A stretch of 64,000 bases of DNA from NCBI GenBank assembly GCA_002722255.1, contig PBLD01000001.1, positions 936,311 through 1,000,310 of the forward strand, in the 5' to 3' direction. Both the position numbers and the translations under genes were made by a program. Source of the DNA: Winogradskyella sp. (GTDB lineage Bacteria > Bacteroidota > Bacteroidia > Flavobacteriales > Flavobacteriaceae). Positions 15,918 to 46,808 of this stretch are shown piece after piece (positions within the stretch are counted from its first letter, which is position 1; each line of letters opens with the position of its first letter). The notes under the pieces are model-generated. The model was not told the DNA's origin, did not search any database, and saw only the letters and a program-made list of their open reading frames with translations.

Positions 15918-15987
15918 CCATTCGTCGCCACCAAGGGTTTACTCGTCTAAAAATGCCGCTATAGCCTCAACTGTAGGGTTAAATTTG
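15918..15987 (+). promoter_or_regulatory. LytTR-type promoter A (upstream of 16019)
   Basis: Half-sites CCATTCGTC (15918-15926) and TTACTCGTC (15939-15947) are spaced exactly 21 bp. An exact -7 box TAAATTTG lies at 15980-15987, 41 bp after the second half-site start and 32 bp before the ATG at 16019. Confidence 0.75.
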
Positions 15988-23932: not shown

Positions 23933-24646
23933 ATGAATTGTATTATTATAGATGATGAAGCTACAGCAAGAGCTATAATTAACCAACTATGCAGTACTGT
24001 AGATAGCTTAAATGTTTTAGAAGAATTTCCTAGTGCAATTCATGCCATAAAGTACTTAAATCAGAATGATGTCGATTTAATCTTTTTAGATATACACATG
24101 CCAGATTTTACGGGTTTTGATTTTATAGAAACCATAAAGAATCCACCAAAAATTATATTAACTACCTCAGATTCTAATTTTGCTATACAAGCATTTGAGT
24201 ACGATTGTATAGTAGATTATTTGGTAAAACCAATTACACCAGAGCGCTTTAAAAAAGCCATACAAAAAGCAGAAGCTGTAGCAAGCAGTCCAAAAAAGGT
24301 AAAAAAGCCTGAAGATGATGTAGAGACATCTTCTGGTAACGATTTGTATGTTAATATTGACAGACGACTCATAAAAATTGATATTCCAAGTATTTATTTG
24401 GTAGAAGCCAAAGGCGATTATATTCAAATAAAAACTGAAACTAAAAACTATACGGTACATTCAACACTAAAGAAGATTGAAGAAAAACTTCCCGATAGTT
24501 TATTCTTAAAAATTCATCGTTCTTACATTATTAACGTAGATAAGATTATAGATATTGAAGATAATAGTGTTCTTATAAAGAAAGATGTAATACCTGTAAG
24601 TCGTTCTAACCGTCCAGAGTTAATGAAACGACTTAACTTACTCTAA
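23933..24646 (+). CDS. LytTR-family response regulator, candidate master regulator of the regulon
   Basis: A 237-residue regulator. The receiver domain (1-120) has the acidic D7-D8-E9, phospho-acceptor Asp53 in IFLDIHMP, and Lys99 in YLVKPIT. The LytTR DNA-binding domain (about 138-237) shows IYLVEAKGDYIQI, LKKIEEKLP, FLKIHRSYIINVDKI and VIPVSRSNRPEL. LytTR proteins bind two direct 9-bp repeats spaced about 21 bp. Nine promoters of that design with CCATTCGTC-like half-sites lie within this window, one of them (T1) starting right behind this gene's stop. It is the last gene of the H-NOX/FIST operon and so the natural output of that phosphorelay. Confidence 0.93.
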   Translation: MNCIIIDDEATARAIINQLCSTVDSLNVLEEFPSAIHAIKYLNQNDVDLIFLDIHMPDFTGFDFIETIKNPPKIILTTSDSNFAIQAFEYDCIVDYLVKPITPERFKKAIQKAEAVASSPKKVKKPEDDVETSSGNDLYVNIDRRLIKIDIPSIYLVEAKGDYIQIKTETKNYTVHSTLKKIEEKLPDSLFLKIHRSYIINVDKIIDIEDNSVLIKKDVIPVSRSNRPELMKRLNLL

Positions 24647-24647
24647 A

Positions 24648-24738
24648 CAATTCATCGTTTTAATAAGGGTTTTCAACGTAGCCAAAGGTCTATTTATCGA
24701 ATTTTAAATATGATGATAGGTACTCTCATTTATCTTTG
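24648..24738 (+). promoter_or_regulatory. LytTR-type promoter T1 (drives a short transcript)
   Basis: Half-sites CAATTCATC (24648-24656), GTTTTCAAC (24669-24677) and CTATTTATC (24690-24698) at exact 21-bp steps. A perfect -7 box TATCTTTG lies at 24731-24738, 41 bp from the last half-site. No gene follows before a terminator. Confidence 0.65.
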
Positions 24739-24743
24739 ATTTA

Positions 24744-24812
24744 GATTCATATAGCGGTATATTGGATTAATGACGAATTAAGGCAGAAACAAAAAGTTTC
24801 TGCCTTTTTTTG
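24744..24812 (+). ncRNA. Candidate small RNA 1 (about 68 nt)
   Basis: The span runs from the expected start 6 nt after the TATCTTTG box to the end of a perfect terminator: stem 24781-24790 / 24796-24805, AAAAA loop, then seven T. No convincing reading frame exists in it (the ATG at 24770 stops after three codons). It shares TCATA and TTGGATT.ATG with candidate small RNA 2, at similar distances from the promoter. The start site is inferred. Confidence 0.5.
24779..24812 (+). terminator. Intrinsic terminator of small RNA 1
   Basis: Perfect 10-bp stem AGGCAGAAAC/GTTTCTGCCT with an AAAAA loop, followed by TTTTTTT. Flanking A and T extend the pairing. Confidence 0.9.
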
Positions 24813-24831
24813 GTTCAATAAATAAAAATTA

Positions 24832-24921
24832 CCATTCGTCGACACTTAACTGCATTCCACAGCCTTACAGTCTATGTTCAACGAATAATAAAAATCCCAG
24901 CATAGAATGTCAGTATTTTTG
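24832..24921 (+). promoter_or_regulatory. LytTR-type promoter C (drives a second short transcript)
   Basis: Half-sites CCATTCGTC (24832-24840), GCATTCCAC (24852-24860) and ATGTTCAAC (24874-24882). A perfect -7 box TATTTTTG lies at 24914-24921, 40 bp after the last half-site. The first 65 bp are similar to promoter B (shared GTCGACACTTA, GTTCAAC and GAATAATAAA). Confidence 0.72.
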
Positions 24922-24927
24922 AATTCG

Positions 24928-24996
24928 AAAGTCATAATTTCATGGTTTTTGGATTGATGGTAAGAACAAGACAAAGGCGAAAGCCTTTGTCTTTTC
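24928..24996 (+). ncRNA. Candidate small RNA 2 (about 69 nt)
   Basis: The span runs from about 6 nt after TATTTTTG to the end of a GAAA-loop terminator. It contains TCATA (24932-24936) and TTGGATTGATG (24949-24959), matching TCATA and TTGGATTAATG in small RNA 1. The only frame (ATG at 24942, stop at 25017-25019) runs through the terminator hairpin and has no counterpart in RNA 1, so coding is unlikely. Confidence 0.5.
24968..24996 (+). terminator. Intrinsic terminator of small RNA 2
   Basis: An 11-bp stem AAGACAAAGGC/GCCTTTGTCTT closed by a GAAA tetraloop (24979-24982), then a short T-run. Confidence 0.88.
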
Positions 24997-25030
24997 AAAT
25001 TAAGAAGGTGATTAAATAGCAAATAAAGTA

Positions 25031-25130
25031 TAATAGTCAGTGGTATTTTAACCCCTTAAGAACTGATTATTATAAACCCCTAATTACTAACTAGGAGAAA
25101 GGCAAATACGAAAGTTTTTGCCTTTTGTTT
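25031..25130 (+). pseudogene. Relic of the 3' end of a 25283-like T9SS gene plus its terminator
   Basis: Bases 25031-25130 align with 27841-27955, the last codons and terminator of the T9SS gene downstream: TAGTCAGT, CCCTTAA, ACTGATTATTA, CCCTAATT and the AAAGGCAAA...GAAAG...TTTTGCCTTTT hairpin all recur in the same order. No open frame remains. It is best read as a leftover of a deleted tandem copy. The hairpin at 25097-25125 may still terminate transcription. Confidence 0.6.
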
Positions 25131-25165
25131 TTTATAAAAATTTCATTCAAAAAATAGCACAAAAA

Positions 25166-25255
25166 CCATTCGCCGAAGCTTAAACGTTTTTTGTCGCTAT
25201 CTGACTTTAGGTAATCGAAATATTTCCAAACAGGCAGAAGTTCAGTTTAATTTTG
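25166..25255 (+). promoter_or_regulatory. LytTR-type promoter D (upstream of 25283)
   Basis: Half-sites CCATTCGCC (25166-25174), a weak TTTTTTGTC (25187-25195) and TAGGTAATC (25208-25216) at 21-bp steps. An exact -7 box TAATTTTG lies at 25248-25255, 27 bp before the start codon. Confidence 0.65.
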
Positions 25256-25282
25256 TTACAGAAATAAGAACATTTCAGCCTT

Positions 25283-27886
25283 ATGAAACAACAATACACT
25301 TTAAAACACAAATTTTTTCTTTTAGCAATATTAATTCTGGGCTTTAGTGCTAATGCACAAGAAGATATTCCTTTTAATTGCGACTATAACGCATATTTAT
25401 TTCAACACAATGATGTGTATGCGATAGATTTAGCGTCTGGTAGTTCTTATCTGGTTGCTGCAGATGTTACACCTGGTAATATAAATGGCGCGGCATACAA
25501 TCCTGCTGATGGCTTTATCTGGGGCTCATTAGGAACACCAGAAAAAACAATTGTAAGAATTGGTAGAAATTTTACGACTACAACCTATTATATAGATGAG
25601 TTACCTACCAGTAACCGCTACATTGGTGACATTAGCGCAACAGGTATGTATTATCTTAAAGGTGGTGGTACAACTTACTATAAGATAGATGTAGATCCAG
25701 AATCTACAAACTACGCACAACATAATGCTACAGAAACATTATCTCAGAATATTAGTATCCATGATTGGGCTTTTAATGCTGTAGATGGTCAACTATATTC
25801 AGTAGAAAAAAACACAAATATTTTATACCGAATTAACCCAGACAATGGTGTAGTAACCTCGCTTGGTGTAGTGCCAATATTAGCAGGAAATAGTTATACT
25901 TACGGAGCAGTATATTTTGATGCTGATGGCCGTTTTTATGTGTCTGCAAACCAAACAGGAACCATTTATGTGATTCAAAATGTACAGGATGTAAATTCTA
26001 CTTTAGACATAGATTCTAACTTGTTTGCTTTTGGTCCATCAAGCTCTAGTAATGATGGAGCACGTTGCCCAACGGCACCTGTTTTACAAGAAATTTGTGA
26101 TAATGGTATTGATGATGATGGTGATGGACTCATAGATTGCCAGGATCCATCATGTTCAGGATTTGGAATGTGCGATATTATTGAGCCACCAACTTCTGGT
26201 GGAAACGATGGAGGGTTAGAAAGTAACAACAGACTTTCTGAGCAAATTAATGCACGTAACTTCAACAGAGCAAAAACAGGTTACACGTTTGATAGAAGCA
26301 CTGCACCAAGAGTATCAAAAGATTTTATGTATGCAAACCGTACTTCAGATAATAGCTTTACGTTACAAGATTTTGTGCCATTAGATGTTATTGGTGAAAC
26401 GGAAGCTATAGAATCTACACCTGCAGACCTTATAAATATTACAAATGCAAGCGAAATTTATGCTGTAGATTACATGAATAACGATACACCAATTGCTACA
26501 GTTTTAGCTCTCAAAACCGAAAACGGTGTTTATGAGCACACAAAATATATTTGTGATCGTCTATTAGGTGCAGAGTTAATTTCTGTAAATACAATAACTA
26601 TTAACGAGCAACCTTTTATAAAATCTATTTTAAAAAATATTGATGGCACATATGAGTTTGTTTTAAGTCTTTCAGCAAAGGTTATTAATGAAGATGCAAA
26701 CTTTGCTGTAGAAAGCCACTGGAATTTAGATCAGTACGAAAGCGATGTTACCTTTTATAATTTCCAAATTTGGGCAAATACAGTAGATGATCTGTACCTG
26801 TTAGGAGAAGAAGTTTTAAATCTATTAAATGTTGAAAAAGAAATAACAGAGTACAATCTCTCAACACCTCCACCAGTATTTGTAAGAAAAGGACAGTATA
26901 GAAACGGAGCACTAGATCTGCAGGTTATTAATACCAACGCTACAGAAACTGTAAACTTAGATGCAGGTTTTAGAACTACAGAAACCAGCGAATTTCAAAA
27001 TATAAGCAATACCCTAACCTTGGGTGAGCAATACATCACTAATCTAACGGTTGAGACTGGACGTTTGTTTGATATTGGGTTTAGAATTGGTGATGGTATT
27101 GCTACGCCAGATGATTTGTTTATGTCAGATGGTCCTTGGGGAATAGACGATTCACAAGATGGTACAACAGTTGGTTTATACAATGTAACAGAAAATGATT
27201 ACGACTTTACTTCAGATGAATTTCCTATAGAACGTAATGTACAATTAAGGGCTACAACAAATACATATGTAGCAGCTTACAGAGCATTAACACCGCGTTT
27301 TAAAGCAGTTGATTTATCAGATTATAACAGTTTAAAGTTAAGTGCATCTGGTACAGGAAATTTAGAAATTACATTCGTAAAAGAAAGTATTAGCAACTGG
27401 GAAGAGCAATACAAAACTACAATTGCCCTTACCAATGCAGAGCAAGAATATGTGTTGCCAATTGCAGATTTTATGAATAATACTGCTGATGCACCACTAT
27501 TAAATGATGTAGTAACTATAGTATTTACTATGGTGTCTGAAGATGGTACAACAAGCTCTAAGATGATGAACTTAAGCAATCTAAGGTTGTCGCAAGAGAC
27601 AAGCTTATCTGTAGAAGAGTTTAGTGCAGATGAGAATGTGCTAAGTGCATATCCAAACCCAATGACATCTAAAACCACTATAGCATTTACAATAGTGCAA
27701 AACGAAACCGTACAGTTTGTAGTATACGACCAATTAGGTAAGCAAGTTTATAATACAACGTACAATGCAATAGCAGGACGCAACAGCATCACCTTTAATA
27801 GAGATAACCTTAGTGCTGGTTTGTACTTCTGTAAAATTATTAGTAGTCAGTATGAAATTAATCCCTTAAAACTGATTATTAATTAA
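25283..27886 (+). CDS. T9SS-exported protein with DUF6923-like N-terminus
   Basis: An 867-residue surface or secreted protein. Signal peptide to about SANAQ (residue 25). Residues 35-270 resemble the DUF6923 propeller-like region (DVYAIDLASGSSYLV, GAAYNPADGFIWGS, ISIHDWAFNAVDGQLYSV). A calcium-binding type motif, DNGIDDDGDGLIDCQDPSC, follows near 275. A middle region of about 400 residues resembles a carbohydrate-binding or matrix domain, but I do not recognise it. The last 80 residues are a type A T9SS sorting domain (LSAYPNPMTSKTTIAF, DQLGKQVYN, SAGLYFCKI). It carries LytTR-type promoter D, so it is likely a regulated surface or matrix protein. Confidence 0.82.
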   Translation: MKQQYTLKHKFFLLAILILGFSANAQEDIPFNCDYNAYLFQHNDVYAIDLASGSSYLVAADVTPGNINGAAYNPADGFIWGSLGTPEKTIVRIGRNFTTTTYYIDELPTSNRYIGDISATGMYYLKGGGTTYYKIDVDPESTNYAQHNATETLSQNISIHDWAFNAVDGQLYSVEKNTNILYRINPDNGVVTSLGVVPILAGNSYTYGAVYFDADGRFYVSANQTGTIYVIQNVQDVNSTLDIDSNLFAFGPSSSSNDGARCPTAPVLQEICDNGIDDDGDGLIDCQDPSCSGFGMCDIIEPPTSGGNDGGLESNNRLSEQINARNFNRAKTGYTFDRSTAPRVSKDFMYANRTSDNSFTLQDFVPLDVIGETEAIESTPADLINITNASEIYAVDYMNNDTPIATVLALKTENGVYEHTKYICDRLLGAELISVNTITINEQPFIKSILKNIDGTYEFVLSLSAKVINEDANFAVESHWNLDQYESDVTFYNFQIWANTVDDLYLLGEEVLNLLNVEKEITEYNLSTPPPVFVRKGQYRNGALDLQVINTNATETVNLDAGFRTTETSEFQNISNTLTLGEQYITNLTVETGRLFDIGFRIGDGIATPDDLFMSDGPWGIDDSQDGTTVGLYNVTENDYDFTSDEFPIERNVQLRATTNTYVAAYRALTPRFKAVDLSDYNSLKLSASGTGNLEITFVKESISNWEEQYKTTIALTNAEQEYVLPIADFMNNTADAPLLNDVVTIVFTMVSEDGTTSSKMMNLSNLRLSQETSLSVEEFSADENVLSAYPNPMTSKTTIAFTIVQNETVQFVVYDQLGKQVYNTTYNAIAGRNSITFNRDNLSAGLYFCKIISSQYEINPLKLIIN

Positions 27887-27918
27887 CCCTTAATTGATTA
27901 CACAACTTAACCTACATG

Positions 27919-27955
27919 GTAAAAGGCAAAGGCGAAAGCTTTTGCCTTTTTGTTT
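27919..27955 (+). terminator. Intrinsic terminator of the T9SS gene
   Basis: Stem AAAAGGCAAA-GC / GC-TTTTGCCTTTT with a GAAA-type loop at about 27921-27950, then TTGTTTT. It is similar to the hairpin in the relic at 25097. Confidence 0.85.
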
Positions 27956-27969
27956 TACAAGTAATCCAG

Positions 27970-33536: not shown

Positions 33537-33606
33537 TCATTCATCTACAGTAAATTGCCATCCGTCGAAATAGAACGCTATTACATGGAAATGCGCAAGA
33601 TATTTG
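33537..33606 (+). promoter_or_regulatory. LytTR-type promoter E (upstream of 33648)
   Basis: Half-sites TCATTCATC (33537-33545) and CCATCCGTC (33558-33566) are 21 bp apart. The box GATATTTG (33599-33606; one mismatch to TAnnTTTG) is exactly 41 bp after the second. An inverted copy, TTATTCATC on the minus strand, lies at 33524-33532, facing the exporter gene. Confidence 0.7.
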
Positions 33607-46344: not shown

Positions 46345-46413
46345 CAAATTATCTAAACAAAAACACCATTTATCGAATTTCTGGGAAGTAGAGGATATTT
46401 AGTTAGATATTAG
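46345..46413 (+). promoter_or_regulatory. LytTR-type promoter H (upstream of 46494)
   Basis: Half-sites CAAATTATC (46345-46353) and CCATTTATC (46366-46374) are 21 bp apart. GATATTAG (46406-46413; two mismatches to TAnnTTTG) lies 40 bp after the second. This is the weakest member of the set. Confidence 0.45.
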
Positions 46414-46493
46414 TGTCATCCCTTAGAATTAATAGCACCAGATTTACAGATTAATAGCCCTAAATTATTATTAATGATTTAACAGTATTTATT

Positions 46494-46808
46494 ATGGATT
46501 TACAGATCACCAACTACAACAATCGCTTTCAGATTAAGGGGACACTTAACAAGTTAAGTATTAAGACTTTTAATGCGCATTTTGCTAATATTTTTGATAG
46601 ACTAGATAATATCTTATTAGATATAGAAAGTGTAGAAAGTATAGATAGGGCAGGCGTAATGGCCTTGGCTAGATTACATAATGAATCTATTACAAAATCT
46701 AAAAAATTATCAATAATAGGTTTAGGTTGCAAAGAACTTTACGATCATTTTAAGTCTGAAGAGCCTGAAACTATCCAGGTGCCTGCTGGTTCAATTGTTG
46801 CAGCTTAG
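46494..46808 (+). CDS. Second STAS-domain protein without the phospho-serine
   Basis: A 104-residue STAS domain (FQIKGTLNKLSIKTFN, NILLDIESVESIDRAGVMALARL, KLSIIGLGCKELYDHF). At the usual DSSG loop it has D51-R-A-G54, so it cannot be switched by serine phosphorylation. It resembles the STAS protein at 33648 in size and in this loss, and also carries a LytTR-type promoter. No anti-sigma kinase gene is visible nearby. A small protein-binding regulator of the surface programme is the likeliest role. Confidence 0.83.
   Translation: MDLQITNYNNRFQIKGTLNKLSIKTFNAHFANIFDRLDNILLDIESVESIDRAGVMALARLHNESITKSKKLSIIGLGCKELYDHFKSEEPETIQVPAGSIVAA

Follow-up and report, generated by a model that had tools for sequence, protein, structure and literature searches.

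Directly behind the gene for a LytTR response regulator, a Winogradskyella genome (3.2 Mb, 84% complete) carries two promoter-terminator units that contain no gene, and the question which this locus raises is whether these units specify RNAs made under the control of the regulator and how such RNAs might work. In the window, by which we mean the whole analysed stretch of 64,000 nucleotides, the regulator gene is the last member of an operon-like run that encodes a haem-NO-binding protein (17044), a PAS histidine kinase, two FIST proteins, two more kinases, an Hpt-like protein (a weak Pfam match, below the cut-off) and the LytTR response regulator. The two units follow on its 3' side, and after them comes the gene for a secreted protein at 25283. 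Orthologues of the regulator were detected in 21 of 36 other genomes of the genus (72–95% identity), and the orthologous loci came for the most part from Winogradskyella and other Flavobacteriaceae. A preliminary description of this DNA had proposed that the units are tandem sister small RNAs driven by the regulator; based upon the comparisons reported here, it is very probable that they are real, regulator-driven non-coding RNAs.

The features of the two units and of the adjoining genes are summarized in Table 1. The perfect TAnnTTTG boxes that had been placed at 24731 and 24914 are present there, and since the flavobacterial sigma-A box occupies positions −12 to −5, according to PMC9723704, the starts of the RNAs are predicted near 24743 and 24926. 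As had been described, each box is followed by a short span (predicted at about 70 and 73 nt) that ends in a terminator with perfect 11-bp arms; the terminator consensus scan listed that of unit 1 and not that of unit 2. Compared with shuffled sequences, the folds of the two RNAs are stable (z −5.8 for unit 1 and −4.3 for unit 2), with the terminator accounting for most of this stability. Both units also share, in similar positions, the word TCATA (24747 and 24932) and the segment TTGGATTxATG (TTGGATTAATG at 24762 and TTGGATTGATG at 24949), in agreement with the preliminary description. Such an 11-mer in two copies could by itself be due to chance, and it is its conservation in the relatives that decides. 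The three LytTR half-sites ascribed to each unit were likewise found, about 21–22 bp apart and with the first of them 81–82 bp before the box, although in unit 2 the middle one is a poor match.

Table 1. Positions of the two units and of the flanking regulator and secreted-protein genes in the window.
Feature	Positions	Strand	Basis
LytTR response regulator, presumed activator	23933–24646	+	Pfam Response_reg and LytTR
Unit 1, three LytTR half-sites (24649–24658, 24672–24678, 24693–24701)	24649–24701	+	matrix score 17.7, shuffle maximum 5.0
Unit 1, −7 box TATCTTTG	24731–24738	+	sequence; sigma-A consensus in flavobacteria (PMC9723704)
Unit 1, predicted sRNA of ~70 nt	24743–24813	+	box to terminator; homologues in relatives
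Unit 1, 5' hairpin	24744–24768	+	minimum-energy fold
Unit 1, core GATTAATGAC, diverged from GATTAATAGC	24765–24774	+	alignment with relatives
Unit 1, intrinsic terminator	24780–24806	+	perfect 11-bp inverted repeat; consensus scan; fold
Unit 2, LytTR half-sites (24833–24842, weak middle ~24852–24862, 24877–24888)	24833–24888	+	matrix score 58.6, best in window
Unit 2, −7 box TATTTTTG	24914–24921	+	sequence
Unit 2, predicted sRNA of ~73 nt	24926–24998	+	homologues in relatives
Unit 2, candidate 5' hairpin TCAT...ATGG	24932–24945	+	pattern common to relatives; not the minimum-energy fold of this copy
Unit 2, core GATTGATGGT	24952–24961	+	alignment and pattern in relatives
Unit 2, intrinsic terminator	24968–24993	+	perfect 11-bp arms; fold
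LytTR half-sites and box of gene 25283–27886	25167–25256	+	matrix score 47.7
Secreted DUF6923 protein with T9SS sorting tail	25283–27886	+	domain search; sRNA core in 3'UTR of the downstream secreted gene in relatives from other genera

A third terminator-like inverted repeat, which the preliminary description had not mentioned, is present at 25098–25125, without a TAnnTTTG box. The terminator-bearing segment 25031–25131 is a repeat of sequence from the end of the secreted gene 25283–27886 (copy at 27841–27956), and its match to our RNA model (E 0.017 in the genome's own search) is ascribed to the terminator. As this segment aligns with the end of the open reading frame 25283–27886 and its terminator, and has no such box, a third sRNA was rejected here and the segment was treated as a gene relic, apparently of a deleted copy of the secreted gene. 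A comparable gene-end stretch lies 3' of unit 2 in three relatives (L002, L005, and L039).

The relation of the promoters to the regulator was examined with 36 promoters collected from the loci of relatives, in which a half-site near CATTCGTCGA is followed by a box 76–87 bp downstream. Within this search range the distance was exactly 81 bp in 30 of the 36, and a promoter matrix was trained on those 30, none of which came from the window. The matrix identified four sites in the window, with scores of 58.6 (24833, unit 2), 56.1 (16426, preceding the receiver gene 16536), 47.7 (25167, preceding the gene at 25283) and 17.7 (24649, unit 1). The fifth-best score in the window was 1.4 and the maximum over 30 shuffled 64-kb windows was 5.0; hence the promoter of unit 1 is clear, although it is the weakest of the four. 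A strict composite pattern (half-site, 70–72 bp, box) was found in 23 of the 38 genomes of the genus that have the regulator as against 1 of the 22 that lack it, a protein of 56% identity being scored as regulator absent in this count, and the reversed control of the pattern gave no match across all 60 genomes. Both the matrix matches and the composite support a tie between this promoter motif and the LytTR regulator, and they place predicted binding sites for it in the promoters of the RNAs, as had been presumed for control by the adjacent regulator.

Further LytTR-like half-site promoters occur in the window at 15919, 33538–33568, 35217, and 42436, and in those at 15919 and 42436 the box is 61 bp downstream of the half-site. 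The genes behind these four are a 132-aa gene, a STAS gene, a 407-aa gene and a receiver-glycosyltransferase gene, which are possible other members of the regulon. A similar composite LytTR promoter was also observed at a distance from the regulator locus in three genomes (G000:C2:208296, G036:C37:6624, and G079:C10:210453).

Units of the same build follow the orthologous regulator gene in many Winogradskyella, and also in Psychroserpens, Lacinutrix, Bizionia, Aestuariibaculum, and further loci of Flavobacteriaceae. An RNA gene is thus predicted beside an AgrA/LytTR-type response regulator gene in the window and in many relatives; in many other loci, for example in Aquimarina, no unit is present. 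The two unit types of the window co-occur in three relatives (L002, L005, and L039), and other relatives have a single unit or two in different combinations. An RNA model (R1) was built from 40 aligned units including the two of the window. In the search of the source genome, unit 2 (E 1.6e-8) and unit 1 (E 1.2e-7), both of which are themselves training sequences, were the sole matches below 0.007. When 37 same-genus genomes, including this one, were searched, matches adjacent to the regulator gene (E<=1e-4) were obtained in 18 of the 22 with the regulator and an adjacent unit was absent in the other four, a proportion that is partly by construction because R1 was trained on many of these genomes (most of the 18). 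The 15 genomes without the regulator had no match below 0.002.

A set of 23 further genomes comprised 16 with the regulator and seven without it, and six of the 16 were dropped because their units were identical or nearly so to training units. Among the ten that remained, a clear adjacent unit (E<=1.3e-5) was found in five and a weak one (E 0.0057) in another, whereas four had no unit at E<=1e-4. The seven genomes without the regulator gave no match at E<=1e-4, the best being 2.9e-4 (G081). As these searches scored 75 (37-genome set) or 150 (source genome and further genomes) first-look candidates per genome, the absences are not absolute and a weak unit could be missed. The preliminary description had staked its reading on conservation of the common segment in relatives and had called for a search for homologous units, and both the core and the units do recur (18/22 as against 0/15, and outside training 5/10 as against 0/7, at E<=1e-4).

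In two Aestuariibaculum genomes (L086:8798–9010 and L097:8798–9012) the RNA is longer, at about 200 nt, and has several hairpins, with the core near the last of them. Another stand-alone unit (L195; G071:C131:1570–1628), which has LytTR-like half-sites and the core TTTAATAGC, is on a different contig from the regulator locus of its genome. In searches with Rfam 15, which cover FopS only if that release includes it, no family except tRNA reached its gathering score in the window and none did so in 14 loci of relatives; at a lax threshold the best overlap was STnc410 (23.1 bits compared with a cut-off of 50, E 0.01). Among the papers listed in literature searches, none describes these RNAs as judged by title and abstract. 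These results point to a family of regulatory RNAs that is undescribed so far.

The units have a common anatomy, in which the predicted start at box +12 is followed by a 5' hairpin (arms UCAU/AUGG or GAUUCA/UGAAUU, for example), then by a core that approximates to GAUURAURGY, and last by the terminator. The 11-base segment common to the two units of the window is conserved, but the conserved element is wider than had been described, consisting of the core GATTRATRGY (TTAATAGC in many relatives) beside the 5' hairpin, and both copies in the window have diverged from it. In a collection of 42 units, which excludes the two long units of Aestuariibaculum and includes a few that were added by eye, the core RTTRATRRY was present in 30 (shuffled mean 1.1) and the pattern TCAT...ATGR in 13 (shuffled mean 1.0); the corresponding numbers for seven units outside training were six (mean 0.3) and four (mean 0.1). 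In many units the core is imperfect. The arms are TCGT/ACGG in L356, a unit from outside the training set, and this double change preserves the pairs. A helix test of this hairpin (hairpin 1), which omitted nine of the 42 units because no core was recognised in them, gave a score of 314, whereas the shuffles averaged 273 (sd 13) and at least 1 of the 500 exceeded the observed value. The 5' hairpin is therefore moderately supported by comparison. RNAalifold applied to a MAFFT alignment returned the terminator only, as MAFFT failed to line up the hairpin arms. The invariance of TAATAGC in A4 and R2 is due to selection, since the source sequences were chosen for having the core, and matches of R2 were taken as leads only.

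The core is also found in mRNAs. In Algibacter, Seonamhaeicola, and other loci where there is no unit behind the regulator, TTAATAGC coincides with or closely follows the stop codon of the secreted gene downstream and precedes the terminator of that gene. Within the fetched loci, which were not de-duplicated for these counts, 35 terminators were located in the first 600 bp behind the regulator, and 12 of them had TTAATAGC not more than 40 nt before them; the same was true of 13 of the 84 further downstream on the same strand and of none of the 101 elsewhere. The exact core is absent from the 3'UTR of the window's own secreted gene (25283), and hence the 3'UTR link is drawn from other genera. 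After 22 of 80 loci had been dropped because they have no large downstream ORF, the 58 scorable loci comprised one with both a stand-alone unit and a 3'UTR core, 16 with the unit alone, 13 with the 3'UTR core alone and 28 with neither; the two thus rarely coincide (Fisher p 0.046, not corrected for kinship). It may be that the stand-alone units originated from the 3'UTR element of the adjacent secreted gene, which was released from it.

Matches of R1 about 3 kb downstream were considered as extra sRNAs and rejected, those that were fetched being the 3' ends and terminators of the next genes. Words resembling the core are frequent genome-wide (GATTAATAGC occurs 41 and 35 times in two genomes, and RTTRATRGY has 32 matches in the window where 14.6 are expected). 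A terminator follows 14 of the 76 GATTAATAGC sites in these two genomes as compared with 37 of 3000 random positions, a contrast that is inflated by the presence of coding DNA among the random positions. The idea that the core has a general role in 3'UTRs was considered and set aside; TTAATAGC was absent from the 101 terminators elsewhere in the loci. In two loci (L193 in G068 and L197 in G009), genes for lipoprotein-like proteins of 164–165 aa have GATTAATAGC in the 3'UTR before the terminator, and the protein resembles, by eye, one encoded at some regulator loci.

A second setting of the core in mRNA is the leader (46367–46500) of a STAS gene at 46494, which has two copies of ATTAATAGC 22 bp apart and, upstream of them, a LytTR-like half-site at 46367. 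In 13 genomes, selected on the basis of a pattern search that detected the core in this leader, the gene-proximal copy is exact and the other varies. Three of the 13 (G005, G010, and G091) lack the regulator, and the 22-bp spacing could also reflect a DNA site.

It is well known that CsrB and RsmY compete for CsrA and RsmA, and that decoy RNAs of this kind carry the same short motif as the regulated mRNAs. Here sequence comparison supports the conserved units, the link of the promoter motif to the regulator, the core and its recurrence in mRNAs, and we infer transcription of the units, their direct activation, a core-binding factor and competition for it. In the explanation thus assembled, the signalling operon would end in an activator, the LytTR regulator encoded just upstream of the units, which would bind to three half-sites about 22 bp apart. 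The sigma-A polymerase would then make two RNAs of about 70 nt, each composed of the 5' hairpin, the core near GAUURAURGY and the terminator. A putative RNA-binding factor, suggested by the recurrence of the core in the same sense in the 3'UTR and in the STAS leader, would read the core on the mRNAs of the secreted gene (3'UTR) and the STAS gene (leader), and the sRNAs would compete with these mRNAs for it. To this explanation as a whole, with LytTR-activated sister sRNAs, a core read by a shared factor and competition, we give a little less than an even chance. Due to the same-sense recurrence in mRNAs and the lack of an excess of complements over sense sites described below, a protein-binding or decoy mechanism is our first choice for the mode of action, although it is put forward tentatively. 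That Flavobacteriaceae possess a decoy system of Csr/Rsm logic with unrelated parts, where a putative protein would recognise GAUUAAUAGC in leaders and 3'UTRs of LytTR-regulon mRNAs and the sRNAs made by the regulator would carry GAUUAAUAGC as well, appears unlikely.

The main rival, which we rank after the decoy mechanism and regard as rather doubtful, is that the regulator-driven sRNAs act by antisense pairing in the manner of FasX, with either the core or the loop of hairpin 1 as the seed. Such pairing is a common mode of action of bacterial sRNAs and is reported for FasX (PMC3673130) and for FopS and GibS of Bacteroides (PMC11697453). In two genomes, moreover, five complements of the core are located 11–14 nt before an ATG, two of them orthologous, and four of the five precede genes for signal-peptide proteins or lipoproteins (judged by eye); the nearest sense sites in these genomes are 1, 3, and 9 nt before an ATG. 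However, this cluster is not reflected in the total counts. Over 60 genomes the complement was found before an ATG 582 times and the sense control 543 times, and the number of complements was no higher in genomes with the regulator than in those without it. Around the starts at the locus there were five complement sites as compared with 0–12 for eight control words, which is no clear excess. Both orientations were far above the reversed-pattern control, and that control was therefore not used as evidence for pairing. The suggestion that the common segment is a seed for start-codon regions is thus not supported so far, as regards the core.

The remaining alternatives deny the RNAs a role of their own or turn them into messages. 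Gene decay occurs at this locus, where 25031–25131 resembles the end of the secreted gene with its terminator, and the core is common to the units and to gene 3'UTRs, as would be seen if the units were promoter-plus-terminator relics of deleted regulon genes yielding functionless short RNAs. This is nevertheless quite improbable in view of the similar length of the units, the conserved core and the hairpin with its compensatory change across genera, and also of the retention of one or two units at the same place in many relatives. It is very improbable that the units chiefly insulate the regulator gene from the next operon, with the RNAs as by-products: the terminator of each unit does stand between two regulated genes, but a lone terminator would suffice, and the promoters and the core would be left unexplained. 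Some relatives (L064, L075, and L076) have a plain terminator at that place instead. That the units encode very small peptides is scarcely credible. Although an ATG is present in both, no reading frame was found by inspection to be conserved among the units of relatives, in which indels alter the frame or a stop follows after a few codons, and the frame in unit 2 runs through the terminator; the view of the preliminary description that the units are non-coding is supported.

The likeness drawn there to Rsm-type and Qrr-type RNAs holds in part. Qrr genes use sigma-54, and CsrA sites are GGA in loops; in other bacteria, fasX is found directly behind fasA, and VirR has a LytTR domain. Membership in the Qrr group does not fit, because the boxes here are of sigma-A type, as judged from the TAnnTTTG boxes present at the expected place. 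Rsm logic is possible as a working mode, but the units do not belong to the Rsm RNAs and the likeness to Csr/Rsm is in logic only: a repeated, conserved GGA was not observed, as the GGA of the two window units reads GAA in the six closest relatives of unit 1 (L002, L005, L006, L009, L014, and L039).

A closer parallel in regulation is provided by the fas operon of Streptococcus pyogenes, in which, according to PMC3673130, FasA, an AgrA homologue with two AgrC-like kinases, promotes FasX. The likeness lies in an AgrA-type response regulator that promotes a small RNA of its own system (PMC3673130). By description, however, FasX is set apart, as it is one RNA of a Firmicute and stabilises ska mRNA, whereas the Flavobacteriaceae locus has two predicted RNAs, each of about 70 nt, with TAnnTTTG boxes and a core of their own. 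The same paper places RNAIII under an AgrA-type regulator and VR-RNA under the two-component VirRS regulator (PMC3673130), and these resemble the units in being regulatory RNAs under an AgrA-type or two-component regulator; RNAIII, which is described there as among the largest regulatory RNAs and as also encoding a peptide, is unlike them by description. Within the Bacteroidota, FopS and GibS are, according to PMC11697453, multi-copy Bacteroides sRNAs with canonical promoters, FopS having a Rho-independent terminator and being bound by RbpB, and Rfp18 of Flavobacterium psychrophilum is, according to PMC9723704, a conserved sRNA with predicted secreted-protein targets and at least three stem-loops. 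The units of the window differ from FopS and GibS by their LytTR half-site promoters, their own core and the lack of any Rfam family at gathering score, and from Rfp18, although it is from the same family Flavobacteriaceae, by the number of stem-loops, as far as its description goes. FopS/GibS and Rfp18 are the nearest sRNAs that we met in the phylum and in the family, and no sequence link to them was seen, in the case of Rfp18 as judged by its partial description.

To our knowledge, the regulatory RNAs of marine Flavobacteriaceae have been little explored. The units appear to be regulatory RNAs that belong to a LytTR-type system but consist of new parts and occur in a new phylum, and an arrangement known from Firmicutes, in which an AgrA-type regulator is coupled to a regulatory RNA, would thereby extend to the Bacteroidota. 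With its presumed activator, its promoter code and its short, conserved RNA core, the family would be testable at once, and the recurrence of the core in mRNAs would provide a handle for finding the RNA-binding factor.
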